Shown here piece by piece: positions 41,675 through 50,918 of a stretch of 64,000 bases of DNA (position 1 is its first letter; each line of letters opens with the position of its first letter). A program made the translations under genes and the position numbers. Source of the stretch: Pseudomonadota bacterium (GTDB taxonomy: Bacteria > Pseudomonadota > Gammaproteobacteria > Burkholderiales > Nitrosomonadaceae); NCBI GenBank assembly GCA_018240285.1, contig JAFEGA010000006.1:124001-188000 (forward strand), read 5' to 3'. Under the pieces are notes generated by a model, which made no database searches, had not been told where the DNA came from, and worked only from the letters and a program-made list of their open reading frames with translations.

Positions 41675-42733
41675 ATGTCGCATCAAATCATTATTCAGCC
41701 CAGCGGGCATGTTTTCCAGGTGGAACCTGGCGAAACAATTCTTGAGGCGGCTTTACGTGAAGGATACTCACTGCCGTATGGTTGCCGCAACGGTTCCTGT
41801 GGAATTTGCAAGGGAAAAATTATCCAGGGGACGGTGGACTACGGTCACTATAGTGAAGAAACCTTGACCGAAGAAGAAAAACAAGCCGGTTATGCATTGT
41901 TTTGCTGTGCTTCTCCTCTGAGCGATGTTGTGATTGAATGTCATGAAATTAGCGCAACCAAGGATATTGAAATTAAAACGTTACCCTGTCGTGTGCAAAA
42001 ACTCGAGCTTGTTGCTCCGGATGTCATGATTGTTTCTCTCAAACTGCCAACGAATCAACGGCTGCAATTTCTGGCGGGACAGTATATCGATATTTTGCTC
42101 AAAGAGGGTAAACGCCGCAGTTTTTCCTTGGCAAACGCGCCGCATGATGACGAGTTCTTGCAGTTGCATGTGCGGAATTATCCGGGCGGTGCGTTTACGG
42201 AGCATGTGTTTACGCAGATGAAAGTTAAAGACATGCTGCGTTTTACGGGGCCGCTGGGTTCATTCTTCTTGCGCGAAGCGCCGGCGGATGACACGGCTAT
42301 TATTTTTCTGGCAAGCGGTACCGGATTCGCACCCATAAAAAGTATTCTTGAGCATATTTTTTATCAAGAAAACAATCGAAACGAAAAAAGAAAAATAACC
42401 CTCTATTGGGGGGCGCGTACTAAGGCTGATTTATATCTGATCGATTTGGCGCAAAGCTGGCAACAACAGCACGGCAATTTTACTTTTATCCCCGTACTGT
42501 CGGAGCCATTACCATCGGACAATTGGCATGGCAGAACGGGATTGGTGCACGAAGCTGTGATGCAAGACCATCAGAACCTGGAGAAGTATCAGGTGTATGC
42601 GTGCGGCGCCCCCGTCATGGTGAAAGCCGCTTATCACGATTTTACCGGCCATCGCAATTTGCCCAAGGATGCTTTCTTTTCCGATGTGTTTACGCCTTCC
42701 GCCGGTAATACTCAAGTTAATCAGAAATCTTAG
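41675..42733 (+). CDS. 2Fe-2S ferredoxin / flavin NAD(P)H reductase
   Basis: A 352-residue electron-transfer protein with an N-terminal plant-type ferredoxin domain, C-R-N-G-S-C-G-I-C near residues 35-43 plus the distal cysteine in LFCCASPLS, an FAD domain (RSFSLANAP) and an NAD(P) domain (FLASGTGFAPIKSIL). This organisation matches CDP-6-deoxy-delta-3,4-glucoseen reductase-like proteins and oxygenase reductases; no oxygenase partner is adjacent. It is the last gene before the glycyl radical operon, which starts 195 bases downstream. Confidence 0.88.
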   Translation: MSHQIIIQPSGHVFQVEPGETILEAALREGYSLPYGCRNGSCGICKGKIIQGTVDYGHYSEETLTEEEKQAGYALFCCASPLSDVVIECHEISATKDIEIKTLPCRVQKLELVAPDVMIVSLKLPTNQRLQFLAGQYIDILLKEGKRRSFSLANAPHDDEFLQLHVRNYPGGAFTEHVFTQMKVKDMLRFTGPLGSFFLREAPADDTAIIFLASGTGFAPIKSILEHIFYQENNRNEKRKITLYWGARTKADLYLIDLAQSWQQQHGNFTFIPVLSEPLPSDNWHGRTGLVHEAVMQDHQNLEKYQVYACGAPVMVKAAYHDFTGHRNLPKDAFFSDVFTPSAGNTQVNQKS

Positions 42734-42927: not shown

Positions 42928-45390
42928 ATGACGACCTTTTTGAGTAGCAGAAATTTCACACCCCGCTCGAGTGATGAGCAACAATCCTTGTCGAATGCCC
43001 TAGACGCTATTCTTAAGAACGATTATCAGGGCAATTTCTTCGCATTGCTGGGCATGTACCAGCGTATTCTGGCCGATAACCATCAGCGTCAGCGCTGGCC
43101 GGAAATCCATAAAAAGCTCGATACCTTATTCAAATGCGGCACAGCCGAGGTCATCAGCGGACCGATGATCGGCATTCCCGTTTCCATACGCGATAGCGAT
43201 TATTTCAAGGAAGCCGCTCAGTTGCTCGGCAAGAATAGATCCCTGATGGCCAATATCGAATGGATGGCGACCGCCTGGAATGCGACGTATGCCGACACCG
43301 GTTTGTGGATGGGAAAAACATTTGAGCCGGTATCGCGCGACACGGTGGCGAAAAAAACTGCCAATGATGCAAAAACAATGAGCGGCTATGATCCGGCCAC
43401 GGTGCGCATCGGCCGTAACTTCTTCCGCGAGCCGCCCGATCCCAATGCGCTGCAAGCGATCGGATTGCCTGCGCTGACGCAATTGTGGAAGCTGAAAGAC
43501 CGGCCGATGCGTCCGGATACGACAGGATTTGATTGTGAATTGCGAGCGGAAAATCTGGCCAAGGAAAAAGCGATTCCGTATAGCAAAACGGGCGGATATT
43601 TTCTCTGCAACATGGGGACTTCAGTGGTGCCGGAAATGAACGGCAAGAAAGTGTATCAGCTCAATTACCGCTGGCCCGGTCTGGGGCCGGTGTATCCCAT
43701 GACGCGTCTGATCGATGAAATCGTCCGCATCGACGACGGTATTTATTTGGGACAATTGGTGTTCGCCACGCATCATTACAGTTTGGGGGCCTTCACTTTG
43801 CCGGATGGCCATGCCCTATCGATCGGCGACAGCTATCCTTACCATTCGATGATCGACAATATCAAACGGATTTTCCCCGTAGGCTGGATGGATGACGGCG
43901 ATCCCTACGGTTATCAGAACAACGGCTTTTTCCTAATGGTCGATCCGGCCTTTGCCAAGGCATTTTATGCCGACGATGCATTTCCGCAACTGCGCCCGCG
44001 TGCTGGGGAAATCGGCTATAACGAACTGGGTTATGCGCAAGCGGCGGTGATTTCAAACGAGCCGGAAGCCGCGAAAACGGCAACAGCGGGCGTGCAGAAC
44101 TGGCCTGAAATTACCGATTGGACTGAGGGCTGGAAAAAAGATGCAGCGCTCAATCGTAAATTCACCACGTTCATTCTGGAAGAGTCACCCAAGGGTGCGG
44201 AAGACGGCGATGTAACGCAACTACGGCAAGACGGTGAATCGATTCTGCAGATGTTGCAACGGATCAGCGCGGAAATTTCCGCGCAAAGCAATCCGCAAGA
44301 CAACTTGAAATATTTTGAGAAGCTTAACCGTTTATTCCGCCGCGGCGTAGCGCCGGTGGTAGAAAACGGTTTGTTCCAGGGACATGGCGAGCGCGGATAC
44401 AATGTGCGTGCCGATAGCCGGGAAACGGCCGATTGGTATGGCGAAACAACCCGCACCACCGGTTTTGATTACTATCACGGTGCGACGCTCAATCTGCATT
44501 GCGGCTTTGCCGAAACGTTTTGCCCCGATCCCAATGCCAAGCCGGGCGACGAGCAGCTTTTCCCCGGCCAGCTTGCCGGTCTGGCACTGGGAGGCGGTAC
44601 GCCCAACGTGCTCAACGTGGTATGGCACAGCATCGGCAAGTATATTTTTCCGTGGGCAGGCAAGTCGTATGAAAAAATCTCCGGAAGGAAATTGAGCATG
44701 CTGCTCGACGAAAGCGACGATTTGGCCGAGCGTTATCCCGAGCGCGTTCACCAGCTTAAAACGCATATCGCCAGCGCGCCGCATTACGCTCTGGTGGAAA
44801 AAAACAAAGCGCATTATTGGGATGCGGAAGGTGTGTACGCCCGGCATTTGAAAAGCGGCACCTGGGATCGCGGTATGTCCGATGAAGACAAGGCATTCTG
44901 GGAAAATGAGGCGGCGCAGCATTGGGTGGACGGCAGCAATATCCAGGATAAGCGCATTGTCGCCGCCGACGCGCTGATGCGGATCGCCGATATGAATTAC
45001 CGCGTGCCGGATGCTTCATTGCAAGCGGTGTCGGAAAGCGGCCCATCACCATTCGCCAGGCAGGGTTACATTTTTCTTGGCGTGGATGACCGCGAGTCCA
45101 TCTTGCCGATGAATAACGGCAGCGGGAAAAAGAAAAAAGTGTTTCAGTTTCACTACCGCTTTCCAATGATCGGCGGTCCGGTTCCGATCGGCTTCTGTCT
45201 CGACGAAATCGTTGAAATCGCCGACGGCCTTTATCTGGGGCAATTGATTTATTCCACGGCATTGGATAAACCGTTCCATTCATCGGTCGACCCTGCGGAA
45301 TACCGCTACCAGTTGTTCGGCTATTTTTTGCTGCTCGATGATGCATGGCAGTATCACCGGCTGGCAATCGGATTGGATACATTGAATTAA
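42928..45390 (+). CDS. Unrecognised 820-aa protein with internal duplication
   Basis: I do not recognise this family. The 820-residue protein has no signal peptide and no clear membrane helix, so it is probably cytoplasmic. Two halves share a motif: residues from 242 read V-Y-Q-L-N-Y-R-W-P followed by DEIVRIDDGIYLGQL, and residues from 738 read V-F-Q-F-H-Y-R-F-P followed by DEIVEIADGLYLGQL. Each is preceded by GGYF- or QGYIF-like segments and followed by a [FY]-[AS]-T turn. A glycine-rich stretch AGLALGGGTPNVLNVVWHS lies in between. It has a strong ribosome site GGGAGG and is the first gene of the glycyl radical operon, 17 bases before the enzyme gene, so a role with that enzyme is likely. 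Confidence 0.8.
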   Translation: MTTFLSSRNFTPRSSDEQQSLSNALDAILKNDYQGNFFALLGMYQRILADNHQRQRWPEIHKKLDTLFKCGTAEVISGPMIGIPVSIRDSDYFKEAAQLLGKNRSLMANIEWMATAWNATYADTGLWMGKTFEPVSRDTVAKKTANDAKTMSGYDPATVRIGRNFFREPPDPNALQAIGLPALTQLWKLKDRPMRPDTTGFDCELRAENLAKEKAIPYSKTGGYFLCNMGTSVVPEMNGKKVYQLNYRWPGLGPVYPMTRLIDEIVRIDDGIYLGQLVFATHHYSLGAFTLPDGHALSIGDSYPYHSMIDNIKRIFPVGWMDDGDPYGYQNNGFFLMVDPAFAKAFYADDAFPQLRPRAGEIGYNELGYAQAAVISNEPEAAKTATAGVQNWPEITDWTEGWKKDAALNRKFTTFILEESPKGAEDGDVTQLRQDGESILQMLQRISAEISAQSNPQDNLKYFEKLNRLFRRGVAPVVENGLFQGHGERGYNVRADSRETADWYGETTRTTGFDYYHGATLNLHCGFAETFCPDPNAKPGDEQLFPGQLAGLALGGGTPNVLNVVWHSIGKYIFPWAGKSYEKISGRKLSMLLDESDDLAERYPERVHQLKTHIASAPHYALVEKNKAHYWDAEGVYARHLKSGTWDRGMSDEDKAFWENEAAQHWVDGSNIQDKRIVAADALMRIADMNYRVPDASLQAVSESGPSPFARQGYIFLGVDDRESILPMNNGSGKKKKVFQFHYRFPMIGGPVPIGFCLDEIVEIADGLYLGQLIYSTALDKPFHSSVDPAEYRYQLFGYFLLLDDAWQYHRLAIGLDTLN

Positions 45391-45407
45391 TCAGCGTGGA
45401 GGAAAAG

Positions 45408-48404
45408 ATGATGAGTAATGACAAATTCAATCGCGGCGGTATCCGCATCGACCTGGAACAGGGCACTGCGGATGCTGCCGCATTCAGCGAAAACATCGCC
45501 ATTTTTCCTATTCCCAATACCACGCCGGATAAGATCAAAACATTGCACGATCTGGCGCTGAGCGACATTCGACTGAGCGACTTCCCAGTCGTGCAGGCGT
45601 GGCGCAATCAATTGTTCGATCCGGCATGGATTCCAGAAGTGTGCGATGAACTGCCGCGTTTATTGACTGAATTTCTGCGCCAGCCCGATCATGCAGCGCT
45701 GCCGCCGGTGACGCGCCGCGCGCAGGCGTTGAAACATGTGTTCAGCTACAAAACACCGCTGGTGCGCAGCACCGATTTACTCCCGGGGCAAACGACCACC
45801 AGCTTTGTCGGCCCGGTTGTGTATATGGACATGAGCGGGTATTGCATCTGGCCGGAACTGGAAACGCTGGCCAAACGGCCGCAGAATCCGTTCAAGATCA
45901 AACCGGAAGTCGCCAAGCGGCTGAACGAAGAAATTTTTCCCTTCTGGCTGGAGCGGCGCACGGTACAAGAGGCGGCGCGTTATAGCGCTTACGATACCGC
46001 CAATTACGCAAACGATCAGCGCGATGAGGTCGATGGCGGAATGTGCGAAGGCAAGCCGTCCATCGACCCGCCGCTGAAAAAAAGGGCCGGTGAAACGCCC
46101 AAATGCCAGGAATTGTTTGAGCGGGTGGCTTTTTACTTGTCCGATAAAGCCACGGCTGTTTCCCATACCACACCGGATTTCGGCCGGGTACTGCAATTCG
46201 GGTTTAACGGATTGATTGCGCAATTGCAGAAAGATATCGTGAACGGTATTGCCGATACGCCGGAAAAAATCGAATTTGCCCAAAGTGTCATCGCGGTTTA
46301 CGAAGGCGCTAAGATTTACGCTGAACATTTGGCCGAGGCTGCCGAGAAAGCTGGAAATAACGAGCTGGCGGCAATCTGCCGCAAGGTTCCGGCAGAGCCT
46401 GCCAGTACGCTGGCGGAAGCGATTACCGTCGTCTGGATCTGCTACCACTTGCTGCTGCAGGAGAATACCAATTTCGGCCTTTCGTTGGGCCGGTTGGATC
46501 AGACGCTGAATGAATTCTATCTGCGCGACTGGCTGTCGCAACCGGACGAAGCGGCGAAAACGGCGTATACAAAGCGTGCAGTTGAGTTGATGTGCCACTT
46601 CTTTTTGCGCTGCTCCGATCATGTGCCGCTGTCGCCGGAAAGTGCAGAAGTGCTGTTTGCCGGTAGCGGCTCGAACCAAGCCCTGACCGTAGGCGGCACG
46701 CGCTGGGAGAATGGTCAAACGGTCGATGCGGTCAACGACATGACTTACATTATCCTGAAAGCGACCGAGATGCTGTCCATCCGCGATCCGAACGTGCATG
46801 CGCGCTATCATAAGGATGTTCATCATCGCGCACCGGACGGCACGCCTTTGGCGGCGCATGAAATTTCCCCATATCTGAAACGCATCTGCCAAGTGAATCT
46901 GGTTACTCGCGCAACTCCTGCGCTGCACGGCGATGCGCCGGTGATCCGCAGTATGGCGAATTATTACGCCAAGCACGATCATGTCACGGCGGACGAAGCA
47001 TTGGCGGATGCGCACGATTACGCGTCGATCGGCTGTATCGAGCAAAATGCCGACCATAAACATTACGGCCATACTGGCTCCACTTTGCTGGTGCTGCCGG
47101 CGGTGCTGGAGCTGGCGATGTTCGGCGGCAAGCATCGCAGCGACGGTACCGGCAAGAAGGATCCTAATCTGTTTTACGGCAAGCCGGATTACACATCCCC
47201 GCCGTTGACGGCCATGACATCGATGCAGGATTTCATCGACAGCTTCCGCTTCCAGCTCGATGAAATGGCGCGGCATTGCGTGCAATTCAACAATTATCTG
47301 GGGCGCACGCTGGAAAAAATCCGGCCTTCACCGCTGCTGTCGGGATTATTCGACGGCCCTACGAACAAACCGGGAGAAAGTGGCGCCAAATTCCGCGATG
47401 TTGCTTCCGGCGGTGCCAAATATAATTCTTCCGGGGTCGCTATTATCGGACTTGCCGATGTGATCGATTCGTTTTGCGTCATCGATGCGCTGGTGTTCGG
47501 CGGCAAAATGTCGGCCAAGGAATTGATCGCGGTATTGGATGCAAATTTCGGCCGCAGCCCATTGGTTACCAATGAGGCGGAAGCGCACAATTTTGCCAAG
47601 AACTGGCTGGATCGTATCCGGCAGTTGGCGGGCGGTTCCGGCACGCATCCGGCAGCGATGACACCTCAGCGGTTGCGGGAGTGCATGCGCTTGATCCGCC
47701 TGGCGCCAAAATACGGTGCCGGGGTCGATGAAACACCCGGTGGCATTTACAACAACGCGATGGCGGTTAAATACACGCGCTTGCTGACTAAAATGATCCA
47801 GGAGGTTTTTTTCAAGTACCGTACGCATCGCGGCGGACGTTACTTGACCGGTTACTGGAGCATGACCAATCACGCCGGTTTCGGCATGTTGAGCCGGGCT
47901 ACGCCGAATGGCCGGGTCAATAGCGCATCGTTCGCCAGCGGTATTACGCCGTGCCCCGGTATCGTCAAAGCCAACGGCGAGCCGGTGATGCTGCTGGATC
48001 ACATGCTGTCGGTTGCCAGCGTCGACGCGGACACGGTGCAAAACGGCTACACCTATAATCTCAGTCTAACGCCGCGCGGCAAAGTGTATTTCGACGAAGA
48101 CACCGAGCTTTTTGCCACGCATATGAAGACGTTTATGGATCAGGATGGTGTGCTGGTTCAACTGTGCGTGACCTCGATCGAGGATTTCATCGCGGCGAAC
48201 GCCGCCGCGACGGCGGCAAGCCAGGCCGGTGCGGGTGACGCCGAGCAAAAAGCGCTGGCGCCGTACAAAGATCTGATGATACGGGTGGCCGGTTACTCCG
48301 CTTACTACGTGACGTTGAGTCCGTTGATGCGGCAGGAAATCATTGATCGCGCCAATTTCGATATGAAAAGCGGCATTGAGCAGCACACAACTACAGGAGC
48401 ATAA
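45408..48404 (+). CDS. Glycyl radical enzyme (unknown substrate)
   Basis: A pyruvate-formate-lyase-superfamily radical enzyme of about 998 residues, longer than usual (about 780-870). The catalytic cysteine is C543 in the sequence A-S-I-G-C-I-E-Q; a glutamate two residues later is typical of dehydratase and C-N/C-C lyase branches (glycerol dehydratase, choline lyase, hydroxyphenylacetate decarboxylase). Pyruvate formate-lyase has two adjacent cysteines, which are absent. The radical glycine is G962 in R-V-A-G-Y-S-A near the C-terminus. Other family segments are AVSHTTPDFGRVLQFGFNGL and FAGSGSNQALTVGG. The start is the ATG at 45408 after GGAGG; the frame reaching back to 45345 is within the upstream gene. 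Activated by the radical-SAM protein two genes downstream. Confidence 0.93.
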   Translation: MMSNDKFNRGGIRIDLEQGTADAAAFSENIAIFPIPNTTPDKIKTLHDLALSDIRLSDFPVVQAWRNQLFDPAWIPEVCDELPRLLTEFLRQPDHAALPPVTRRAQALKHVFSYKTPLVRSTDLLPGQTTTSFVGPVVYMDMSGYCIWPELETLAKRPQNPFKIKPEVAKRLNEEIFPFWLERRTVQEAARYSAYDTANYANDQRDEVDGGMCEGKPSIDPPLKKRAGETPKCQELFERVAFYLSDKATAVSHTTPDFGRVLQFGFNGLIAQLQKDIVNGIADTPEKIEFAQSVIAVYEGAKIYAEHLAEAAEKAGNNELAAICRKVPAEPASTLAEAITVVWICYHLLLQENTNFGLSLGRLDQTLNEFYLRDWLSQPDEAAKTAYTKRAVELMCHFFLRCSDHVPLSPESAEVLFAGSGSNQALTVGGTRWENGQTVDAVNDMTYIILKATEMLSIRDPNVHARYHKDVHHRAPDGTPLAAHEISPYLKRICQVNLVTRATPALHGDAPVIRSMANYYAKHDHVTADEALADAHDYASIGCIEQNADHKHYGHTGSTLLVLPAVLELAMFGGKHRSDGTGKKDPNLFYGKPDYTSPPLTAMTSMQDFIDSFRFQLDEMARHCVQFNNYLGRTLEKIRPSPLLSGLFDGPTNKPGESGAKFRDVASGGAKYNSSGVAIIGLADVIDSFCVIDALVFGGKMSAKELIAVLDANFGRSPLVTNEAEAHNFAKNWLDRIRQLAGGSGTHPAAMTPQRLRECMRLIRLAPKYGAGVDETPGGIYNNAMAVKYTRLLTKMIQEVFFKYRTHRGGRYLTGYWSMTNHAGFGMLSRATPNGRVNSASFASGITPCPGIVKANGEPVMLLDHMLSVASVDADTVQNGYTYNLSLTPRGKVYFDEDTELFATHMKTFMDQDGVLVQLCVTSIEDFIAANAAATAASQAGAGDAEQKALAPYKDLMIRVAGYSAYYVTLSPLMRQEIIDRANFDMKSGIEQHTTTGA

Positions 48405-48406
48405 CC

Positions 48407-49051
48407 ATGCACGCCACCATTCCCGCGTTACCGGACGGCATACATTATATTTTAAAATCCGGCATTCAATTGGGCGAGGCCGATGGCAGTCTGGCCGGTT
48501 TGCTGAATCGCATGGAAGGCACACTGTTGGCCGCCGGTATGGCGGCACTGATCAAGCTGGGTTTCGGTTTTTTGATCTGCCTCGATTTGAGCGAATCCAA
48601 AGCGGAAAAAGCACGGCATTTTTTCGATGATAATTTCGTCATCAAGGATCCCAATGCGCCGGGCGGTATCCGCTACTACCAGGGAAAAATCCTGATCCGC
48701 ACGCGCAAACCGCATGACGACATGAATGTGCTGATTAAATTCTGCCCCGATCCGCAAGCGCTTTTTATCGAAACATCGTTCGGTAAGCAATTGAATCCGG
48801 TTGCCATCGTGACCACCGAAGCACTCAGCGAAGCGGAAGCAGGCCGGATCGAACGCGATCCGGATGAAGTGGATTTGGTGATCCGCTTTAAGGATACCCA
48901 GGCGATTCTGGGATTGGCCGAGCGTCCAAATGCGGATGTAGCGCAGTTGTTGATTGAAAATCTGGTGCAGATTACCGGCAATTTCGGGCATATGTTCAAG
49001 TTCGGCGCCATCGGCAAAAACGTTCAGACGGCCATGAAGGAATTTTTATGA
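48407..49051 (+). CDS. Small protein with SCP2-like C-terminus
   Basis: A 214-residue soluble protein, 2 bases after the glycyl radical enzyme gene and overlapping the activase gene by 4 bases. The last ~75 residues (DEVDLVIRFKDTQAIL, then ADVAQLLIENLVQITGNFGH and MFKFGAIGKNVQTAM) resemble the sterol-carrier-protein-2 pattern: a hydrophobic strand, a substrate-pocket helix, a turn with G-N and a helix near the end. SCP2 domains bind fatty acyl or sterol-like ligands. The N-terminal ~110 residues are unrecognised. Function is inferred from the operon: it may present or hold a hydrophobic substrate for the radical enzyme. Confidence 0.6.
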   Translation: MHATIPALPDGIHYILKSGIQLGEADGSLAGLLNRMEGTLLAAGMAALIKLGFGFLICLDLSESKAEKARHFFDDNFVIKDPNAPGGIRYYQGKILIRTRKPHDDMNVLIKFCPDPQALFIETSFGKQLNPVAIVTTEALSEAEAGRIERDPDEVDLVIRFKDTQAILGLAERPNADVAQLLIENLVQITGNFGHMFKFGAIGKNVQTAMKEFL

Positions 49052-49800
49052 GCAGCGAGAAAGGGCTGGTTTTCGACATCAAGCGCGATTGCAGCGAAGA
49101 TGGCCCCGGTATCCGCACCACGGTTTTTCTCAAGGGCTGTCCGCTTTCCTGCATTTGGTGCCAGAATCCGGAAGGCAGAGCGGTCAAACCCGAAACCGAT
49201 ATTCATGGTAACCGGATCGGCACATGGTATACGGTGGACGAATTAATGTACCGTTTGCTGCAAGACAAACCGATTTTTATTGCAAGCGGCGGCGGTGTCA
49301 CGCTGTCGGGCGGCGAAGCGACGTTGCAAATGGGTTTCGCCAGTAAATTGCTGCAAGCCTTGAAGCGCGAAGGCATTCACACAGCGATTGAAACCAGCGG
49401 GTTTTTCGATTATCGACGCTTCAAGGATGAAATGCTGCCCTGGCTGGATTTGATCTATTACGATATCAAGCTGATGGACGAAGCGGCCAGCCAGCAATAT
49501 TGCGGGCACTCGAGCAAGCGCATTCTGGATAATTTTTCCCGCTTGCTCAAGGATGCGCATATCCCGGTGATTCCAAGAATTCCGCTGATTCCGGGAATAA
49601 CGGCGACCGAAGATAATCTCCGCGCCATCGCCGCATTTCTCGATCAGCAAGGCGTCAAGTCGTGCGCATTGATGCCCTACAATCCGCTGTGGAGCGATAA
49701 GCTGAAGAAACTGGGTTTGCCGGCGCGTTACGAGCATAAAGGGTTCATGACACCGGCGGAACAAAAAGCCTGTATCGGCTACTTTACGAAAGCAGAATAA
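49048..49800 (+). CDS. Glycyl radical enzyme activating enzyme (radical SAM)
   Basis: It uses S-adenosylmethionine and a 4Fe-4S cluster to make the glycyl radical on its partner. The cluster cysteines are C31, C35 and C38 (C-P-L-S-C-I-W-C), preceded by the activase motif SEDGPGIRTTVFLKG. Later motifs are GGGVTLSGGEATLQ and AIETSGFF. At 250 residues it has no inserted ferredoxin domain with extra clusters, so it is the short type like the pyruvate formate-lyase activase. The operon context makes the enzyme encoded at 45408-48404 its obvious substrate. Confidence 0.94.
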   Translation: MSSEKGLVFDIKRDCSEDGPGIRTTVFLKGCPLSCIWCQNPEGRAVKPETDIHGNRIGTWYTVDELMYRLLQDKPIFIASGGGVTLSGGEATLQMGFASKLLQALKREGIHTAIETSGFFDYRRFKDEMLPWLDLIYYDIKLMDEAASQQYCGHSSKRILDNFSRLLKDAHIPVIPRIPLIPGITATEDNLRAIAAFLDQQGVKSCALMPYNPLWSDKLKKLGLPARYEHKGFMTPAEQKACIGYFTKAE

Positions 49801-49823
49801 TTCAACCGAGTAAAAGGAAGATC

Positions 49824-50918
49824 ATGCAAAAAGACTTTCACCATGCCACAACCTATGTGCTGGCGCGCTTGGCCGATTTCGACCATGCCGAGGCTGAGAT
49901 CATTGCCTATGCTTCGCAATATGTCGATGATGCGACTAATGCCGGTGTTGTTCACTTCACTGACGGTTCTATGTATGAACATATCAGCTCGGCGCATAAA
50001 ACACTCGATTACAAGAATTTTGACGAATTGGCCAATCATCAGGCGTGGCTGCCGTTCCATTTCTTGCCGGGCAATAATAATGCGAATGCCGGGGAGAATC
50101 CGCTGGATACCTTCATGGACAAAATCGTCTGCAAACCGGATAGTCCCATTGCCAGGGACATGGTGGCTGCGTGCATCGATAGCCGCAACAGTCCACACGC
50201 TTTGCAACGGCTCGGCATTACGCTGCATGTTTATGCCGATACCTGGTCGCATCAGGGGTTCGCCGGGGTTAATCACAAAAATAACGATATTAGTAAGCTG
50301 AACGATGAAGACAATCCCGGCAATTACCTGGCAAACCGGCTGAAGGATTATTTTGGTGACAAATTCGATGCGATTGCCAGCAAACTGATCGGCGATACAT
50401 TGCCGCTGGGTCATGGCGCCGCGCTTTCCTATCCGGATCGCCCTTATTTGAAATGGAGCTACAAAGATAGTAAAAAGAACCGGGTTATCCGGGACAATGC
50501 GGCAATTTTTTTACAAGCGGCGGAGAAAATGTATATCGCCATGCGGCGTTTCCGGCTCGGAGACGCCAATGCCGATGTTCCAGGGTTGCAAGCTACCGAT
50601 AAAGCCAGAATCGAGGCATTGTTCCGCAATATCAAGCACGAAGAGGAGCGCGCTCGGCATCAAGCATGGCTGGAGCGTATCGCAACTGGTTATTTCGATT
50701 TTCCGCCAGCCAATTTGACGTATATCGAAAAAGGCCCCGGCTCCTGGAAGCATGAAGCGCTGGGTACGATCAAAGTGACTGATGATAAGAATGAAAAGTT
50801 TGAATTCAGACCAGGCTTTTTGACAAGCAATTGGAAATTGTTCCACGACGCATTACAGGTGCATCGCTTTTATGTGATTCATGAACTGTTGCCGCGCTAC
50901 GGCATTTGCGCTGCGTAG
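49824..50918 (+). CDS. DUF6765-like histidine-rich protein
   Basis: A 364-residue protein that begins MQKDFHHATTYVLARLAD and contains HISSAHKTLDY, WLPFHFLPG and the segment LGITLHVYADTWSHQGFAGV near residue 135. The spaced His, Asp and Trp residues recall zinc-dependent phospholipase C/S1-P1 nuclease-like folds, and I believe it belongs to the DUF6765 family; no activity is proven. It has no signal peptide. It lies 23 bases after the activase gene with AAGGAAG before its ATG and closes the glycyl radical operon, 19 bases from the convergent rlpA gene. Confidence 0.65.
   Translation: MQKDFHHATTYVLARLADFDHAEAEIIAYASQYVDDATNAGVVHFTDGSMYEHISSAHKTLDYKNFDELANHQAWLPFHFLPGNNNANAGENPLDTFMDKIVCKPDSPIARDMVAACIDSRNSPHALQRLGITLHVYADTWSHQGFAGVNHKNNDISKLNDEDNPGNYLANRLKDYFGDKFDAIASKLIGDTLPLGHGAALSYPDRPYLKWSYKDSKKNRVIRDNAAIFLQAAEKMYIAMRRFRLGDANADVPGLQATDKARIEALFRNIKHEEERARHQAWLERIATGYFDFPPANLTYIEKGPGSWKHEALGTIKVTDDKNEKFEFRPGFLTSNWKLFHDALQVHRFYVIHELLPRYGICAA

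Follow-up and report, generated by a model that had tools for sequence, protein, structure and literature searches.

Glycyl radical enzymes (GREs) are known, to our knowledge, to act on soluble metabolites or hydrocarbons, and they have been seen as tools of anaerobes. In the scheme given in PMC11528403, a glycyl radical produces a cysteine thiyl radical, which abstracts hydrogen from the substrate. For isethionate lyase, PMC6453916 describes a conserved glutamate that deprotonates the substrate hydroxyl, by analogy with C-O and C-N lyases. Here, a GRE gene cluster was analyzed in a 64,000-nucleotide stretch of a Nitrosomonadaceae genome (contig JAFEGA010000006.1, positions 124,001 to 188,000), referred to below as the window. 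Five open reading frames (ORFs) lay on its + strand at 42928-50918, with gaps of 17, 2, -4 and 23 bases. Based on sequence and structure models, it was proposed, with a rough probability of 0.5, that the encoded GRE represents an uncharacterised family to which a partner protein of sterol-carrier-protein-2 (SCP2) fold would hand over a hydrophobic, lipid-like substrate. SCP2 folds bind lipids, and we know of no SCP2 protein described as a partner of a GRE.

An earlier note on this DNA had reported a five-gene operon with a GRE carrying C543 and G962, its radical S-adenosylmethionine (SAM) activase and a DUF6765 protein, but with no recognisable substrate. All ORFs, positions, strand and gaps were reproduced, and the named parts were confirmed by residues and by Pfam and NCBIfam matches. 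The arrangement exceeded chance, as it was shared by dozens of loci spread over several phyla.

The glycyl radical enzyme

The GRE gene (45408-48404, + strand) encodes a protein of 998 amino acids, assigned by Pfam, NCBIfam, alignments and a tree. Both superfamily profiles scored above their curated cut-offs, namely PFL-like PF02901 (E 6.9e-96, 322.8 bits against 24.3) and Gly_radical PF01228 (E 1.1e-5, 26.3 bits against 22.2). The predicted glycyl radical site G962 (codon 48291-48293, + strand) was found in the sequence IRVAGYSAYYV, a glycine loop of the RVxGY form, and was invariant in 17/17 aligned proteins and in the 12 printed rows of the tree alignment. The predicted thiyl-radical cysteine C543 lay within IGCIEQN, followed two residues on by E545, the predicted base glutamate (codons C543-I544-E545 at 47034-47042, + strand). 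Among the best 120 of 746 relatives, the pattern GC[IV]E[QE]N occurred in 118 and the glycine-loop pattern in 115.

Pyruvate formate-lyase was excluded because the GRE reads Gly-Cys-Ile-Glu where E. coli PflB reads Cys-Cys-Val-Ser; PflD, YbiW, CutC and HypD share the Cys-x-Glu form with the window enzyme. The Cys-x-Glu argument of the earlier note thus held. In the alignment with glycerol dehydratase, H164, C433 and E435 were kept as H253, C543 and E545. The residues H281, S282 and D447, which we take to be those contacting glycerol, were replaced by F356, G357 and G557, and the diol contacts were thus not retained. The positions H253, F356, G357, C543, E545 and G557 were all invariant in the 17 aligned close relatives. 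The motifs YWSMTNH, RDPN/REPS-xx-AR and S-H-T-x-P were common to the printed alignment rows, the occurrence of YWSMTNH being partly selected since it was one of two patterns used to search for loci.

The enzyme scored far below all curated cut-offs of the named NCBIfam GRE models that it matched. The PFL2-3/glycerol dehydratase subfamily model TIGR01774 gave 324 bits against 678.2, and the best equivalog, the CutC (choline trimethylamine-lyase) model, gave 197.8 against 1050. Lower scores were recorded for PRK09983 (191.8 against 1109), two sulfopropanediol dehydratase models (185.7 and 167.4 against 1000 each), hydroxyproline dehydratase (148.1 against 1100), indoleacetate decarboxylase (127.1 against 1100), hydroxyphenylacetate decarboxylase (65.7 against 1150) and pyruvate formate-lyase TIGR01255 (23.6 against 994.2). 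Identity to the reference GREs was 21.6-26.0% over long alignments, and it reached at most 26.0% among the best 40 of 50 plasmid records.

The relatives of the GRE formed two sets, one of about 1000 amino acids (near type) and one of about 820 amino acids (distant type). A tree of 36 rows was built from 14 window-type, 8 distant and 14 reference sequences, a duplicate row (L090) having been dropped beforehand. The 14 window-type enzymes fell on one side of a branch with a support of 100, and together with the 8 distant ones they were set apart from all 14 references, which included PflB, PflD, YbiW, CutC and HypD, again with a support of 100. The distant sequences did not form one group, two from Terriglobia standing beside the window type (support 83), and the nearest reference was a Moraxella GRE of unnamed function on a long branch (support 97); the tree was a quick one with long reference branches, which makes the fine placement unsure. 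Model scores, tree and identities thus gave no clustering with any characterised family among those tested, and none of the tested libraries lays claim to the family. Within the open-access literature, outside of which most subscription papers lie, no paper was found that named the GRE family, DUF6765 or a GRE with a lipid substrate. The GRE-wide tree and network of PMC11528403 and PMC6453916 may hold the family as unlabelled groups.

The SCP2-like partner B214

A gene for a 214-amino-acid protein, B214 (48407-49051, + strand), directly followed that of the GRE. Such a small gene was found directly 3' of the GRE in 48 of the 49 eligible near loci and in all 8 distant loci, counting as present two distant cases (L068 and L073) in which the SCP2-like gene is overlapped by longer antisense ORFs. 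B214 had no Pfam match at curated cut-offs, and profiles of the 214-amino-acid family and of its 160-amino-acid equivalent found no solved relative at E < 0.001. The Pfam SCP2 profile matched none of 20 window-type members and, weakly, 3 of 6 members of the distant equivalent (best E 0.0027). The modelled structure of B214 best matched SCP2 folds. The best Foldseek match was UbiJ-SCP2; in a second-look structural alignment, non-UbiJ SCP2 chains scored equally or higher.

It was concluded that B214 is a predicted SCP2-fold protein and the constant partner of the GRE. The cluster is real, and it is better defined by this partner than the earlier note could know. The claim of no recognisable substrate was softened in view of the predicted SCP2 fold of B214.

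The activase, DUF6765 and A820 genes

The fourth gene (49048-49800, + strand) encodes a radical-SAM GRE activase of 250 amino acids with CxxxCxxC from residue 31. It matched Radical_SAM PF04055 (E 2.2e-15) and TIGR02494 (221.9 bits against a cut-off of 174.35), and was linked to the GRE in 47/48 eligible near loci and 7/8 distant loci.

The last gene (49824-50918, + strand) encodes a 364-amino-acid protein with conserved His/Asp positions and a full-length match to DUF6765 (PF20551, E 9.2e-109). Of 16 members, two were faintly matched by the zinc-dependent phospholipase C profile PF00882 (best E 0.017), and the family profile found no PDB sequence at E < 0.001. DUF6765 was present in 27/56 near loci, in 12 of the 20 flanked by over 9 kb on either side, and in 29 of the 49 near- and distant-type genomes, compared with 0/14 control genomes.

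The first gene (42928-45390, + strand) encodes A820, a tandem duplication of 820 amino acids. No Pfam match was obtained at curated cut-offs and no usable one at the loose limit, and neither the sequence profile (solved relatives) nor Foldseek on the model gave anything at E < 0.001. A barrel match for the N-terminus came from the second-look aligner only, and the poorly modelled C-terminal half had no fold call. With low confidence, the N-terminal barrel is possibly lipocalin-like and could bind a hydrophobic ligand. A820 was found in 37/56 near loci and in 16 of the 20 whose flanks both exceed 9 kb. Searches of whole genomes found it in 31 of 41 near-type genomes (G364-G404), including three weak or partial matches (G376, G381 and G389), and in two of 8 distant-type genomes, both Terriglobia. 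Shorter relatives of about 610-620 amino acids adjoined the GRE in a Terriglobia locus (L069, 7098-8921) and in a planctomycete locus (L029, 8054-9919), hence A820 reaches beyond the close family.

Co-occurrence, distribution and hosts

The accessory genes recurred with the GRE elsewhere, but A820 and DUF6765 did not do so everywhere. Neither of the two outcomes that the earlier note had named as refuting its reading, tight clustering with a characterised family or a lack of co-occurrence, was thus obtained. The five families of the window cluster were present in 62, 52, 45, 37 and 30 of 64 loci, and the next neighbour family in 6. Among 20 neighbours scanned with Pfam, a minority of all neighbours, there was no alcohol or aldehyde dehydrogenase, shell protein or quinone-synthesis gene.

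Within the genus Nitrosomonas, the GRE was found in 9/37 genomes (the window genome and 36 others). The same nine carried A820 over its length, two of these matches containing a stop codon and one genome having a split GRE, while full A820 was found in none of the 28 GRE-less genomes (Fisher P 8e-9, uncorrected for kinship). DUF6765 was found in 6/9 GRE-bearing and 2/28 GRE-less genomes, both of the latter partial (P 8e-4). Remnants in three GRE-less genomes fit a unit that was lost together. In G029 (L160, 5882-7566), A820 residues 1-430 and DUF6765 residues 280-364 lay close together, next to the rlpA and speB genes that are its neighbours in the window too; a 4-kb contig of G023 (L162) held pieces of the 214-amino-acid gene, the activase and DUF6765; and G011 (L161) had an A820 piece with a stop. 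The split GRE occurred in Nitrosomonas MAG_20 (G028, CP091134.1; L048 and L052), where some 235 kb separate its two pieces, both of the same strand. The pieces overlapped by about 50 residues (427-476), the 5' one standing with A820 and the 3' one with the 214-amino-acid gene, the activase and DUF6765.

Across the phylum, the GRE was detected at E 1e-100 or better in 3 of 299 sampled genomes, the window genome and G006 included, and A820 in 2/299; the third GRE-bearing genome (G228), 71% complete, gave none. The near-type hosts included Nitrosomonas, Methylomonas, Methylobacter, Crenothrix, Gallionella, Nitrospirota, Chromatiaceae, Magnetococcales, Desulfobulbaceae, Scalindua and other anammox-type Planctomycetota, many of which live at oxic-anoxic boundaries. 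The distant-type hosts (Clostridia and others) included Ruminiclostridium, Oscillospiraceae, Spirochaetes, Chitinispirillales, Victivallales and Terriglobia. The genes were carried by the named strains Nitrosomonas oligotropha Nm75 and Nm45 and N. aestuarii Nm36, as well as by Methylomonas methanica, Methylomonas koyamae and Ruminiclostridium sufflavum.

The window genome has a single PFL-like GRE, and the anaerobic ribonucleotide reductase NrdD was not found in it by a search that was positive in 6/14 controls; anoxic growth is therefore not indicated for this genome. The amoA gene was not found in the window assembly, in a search where no control gave a match. This absence proves nothing, since amoA, a repeated gene, often drops out of assemblies. 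Of 23 genomes of the same genus, 12 gave amoA, and the complete genome G006, which also bears the GRE, has three copies; the window host is called an ammonia oxidiser by kinship.

Several further features were recorded around the GRE. A family of 188-244 amino acids without a Pfam match lay near it in four loci (L057, 9355-9918; L042, 9288-9851; L049, 13864-14472; L069, 9242-9973) from anammox-type, Magnetococcales and Terriglobia hosts. Metallophosphoesterase-type genes were seen in L057 (16860-19025), L049 (16129-18213) and L069 (5470-7080), PF00149 being matched in L057 and L069 and L049 being assigned by clustering with L057 only. The Victivallales genome behind L068 (G360) gave 23 PFL-like matches, some of them pieces of one gene, which is unusually many. 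In the window, a ferredoxin-reductase-like gene upstream (41675-42733) was dropped as an operon member after giving 0 matches in 74 loci searched. A scan for sigma-70 promoters and terminators found no clear excess over shuffled sequences (9 against 7.5 and 15 against 12.3).

Proposed reaction and alternatives

The GRE likely works on a fatty molecule, because it is nearly always adjoined by a protein of predicted lipid-carrier fold. Known Cys-x-Glu dehydratases and lyases served as the model for the proposed elimination. At low oxygen, the activase would generate a radical at G962, from where it would move to C543, and the resulting thiyl radical would take hydrogen from a hydroxyl-bearing lipid carbon. 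Once E545 has deprotonated the lipid hydroxyl, water, acyl-carboxylate or an amine would be expelled from the neighbouring position. The enzyme would thus be an oxygen-sensitive lyase eliminating at C-O or C-N bonds. The lipid would be kept covered and offered to the enzyme by the SCP2-like protein, perhaps with A820 as well, and the faintly phospholipase-C-like DUF6765 protein might help to free it from membrane phospholipid. The most likely type of substrate would be a mono- or diacylglycerol-like molecule, in which, as with the known dehydratases, the hydroxyl-bearing carbon adjoins one that carries a leaving group, either hydroxyl or acyloxy. The data themselves show the order and conservation of the genes, the active-site motif, the structural match of the B214 model and the separate position in the tree, from which substrate class, reaction, oxygen sensitivity and the parts played by the accessory proteins are inferred. 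A wider proposal, that a widespread and so far unrecognised class of GRE lyases fed by an SCP2-type carrier breaks a C-O bond in a glycerolipid that stems from the membrane and is switched on without oxygen by ammonia oxidisers, methanotrophs and iron oxidisers, is tentative and, taken whole, rather doubtful.

The best surviving alternative, although an unlikely one, is that the GRE acts as a dehydratase or lyase on a small soluble substrate (a diol, amino alcohol or sulfonate), with the SCP2-like protein as a ligand-free structural subunit. Cys-x-Glu and H253 are conserved as in dehydratases, and the top solved relatives are labelled PFL2, glycerol dehydratase, glycyl radical protein, diol dehydratase and CutC. 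However, the enzyme falls far under every equivalog cut-off and its diol-contact positions are altered. Moreover, no sixth gene family accompanied it in more than 6/64 loci, and the scanned neighbours included neither the dehydrogenases nor the shell proteins named above.

It is quite improbable that the GRE modifies a quinone or isoprenoid with the SCP2-like protein working in the manner of UbiJ or UbiT, whose role is in soluble-carrier ubiquinone synthesis. The Foldseek result speaks for this, but the second look removed the preference for UbiJ, the scanned neighbours held no quinone-synthesis gene, and relatives occur in Ruminiclostridium and Oscillospiraceae, which are not known to have ubiquinone. 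Least probable is a decarboxylase or radical-addition enzyme (hydroxyphenylacetate decarboxylase or alkyl/benzylsuccinate synthase type) acting on a hydrophobic acid or hydrocarbon: a hydrophobic-carrier partner, a faint resemblance to the indoleacetate decarboxylase model (127 bits) and a solved chain labelled benzylsuccinate synthase alpha (8iof, 120.9 bits) would suit it, but that model requires 1100 bits, MasD, TutD and hydroxyphenylacetate decarboxylase were the lowest of 31 solved relatives (47.6, 43.8 and 30.6 bits), and known systems of this kind have small Fe-S subunits rather than an SCP2 partner.

If the proposal of a carrier-fed lipid substrate is true, an SCP2-linked GRE family would bring lipids offered by a carrier within the reach of GRE chemistry. 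Nitrifiers, methanotrophs and iron oxidisers of microaerophilic habit would gain a low-oxygen enzyme, one for which the searches turned up no assay. A new kind of low-oxygen lipid chemistry could thereby be revealed. The question is directly testable, since named strains carry the genes.

Comparison with known systems

The SCP2 carriers UbiJ and the C-terminal domain of alkylsulfatase have the same fold as that predicted for B214, but the 214-amino-acid family differs from SCP2-domain carriers in having no Pfam SCP2 match of its own. DUF6765 (PF20551) is a family without an assigned function, of which the window member is tied to a GRE operon. CutC has Cys-x-Glu and an activase in common with the window GRE, but carries Asp where the latter has H253. 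The PFL2/glycerol-dehydratase-type GREs (PDB 2f3o, 1r8w and 5i2a) share the fold family, Cys-x-Glu, the glycine loop and a radical-SAM activase with the window enzyme, which also has His at the H164 position of glycerol dehydratase. Compared with this type, the window GRE is only 23-26% identical to the references PflD, YbiW and a shell-associated GRE of Rahnella, and it has about 75 extra N-terminal residues, inserts and altered diol-contact positions, and its system adds the SCP2-like partner, A820 and DUF6765.

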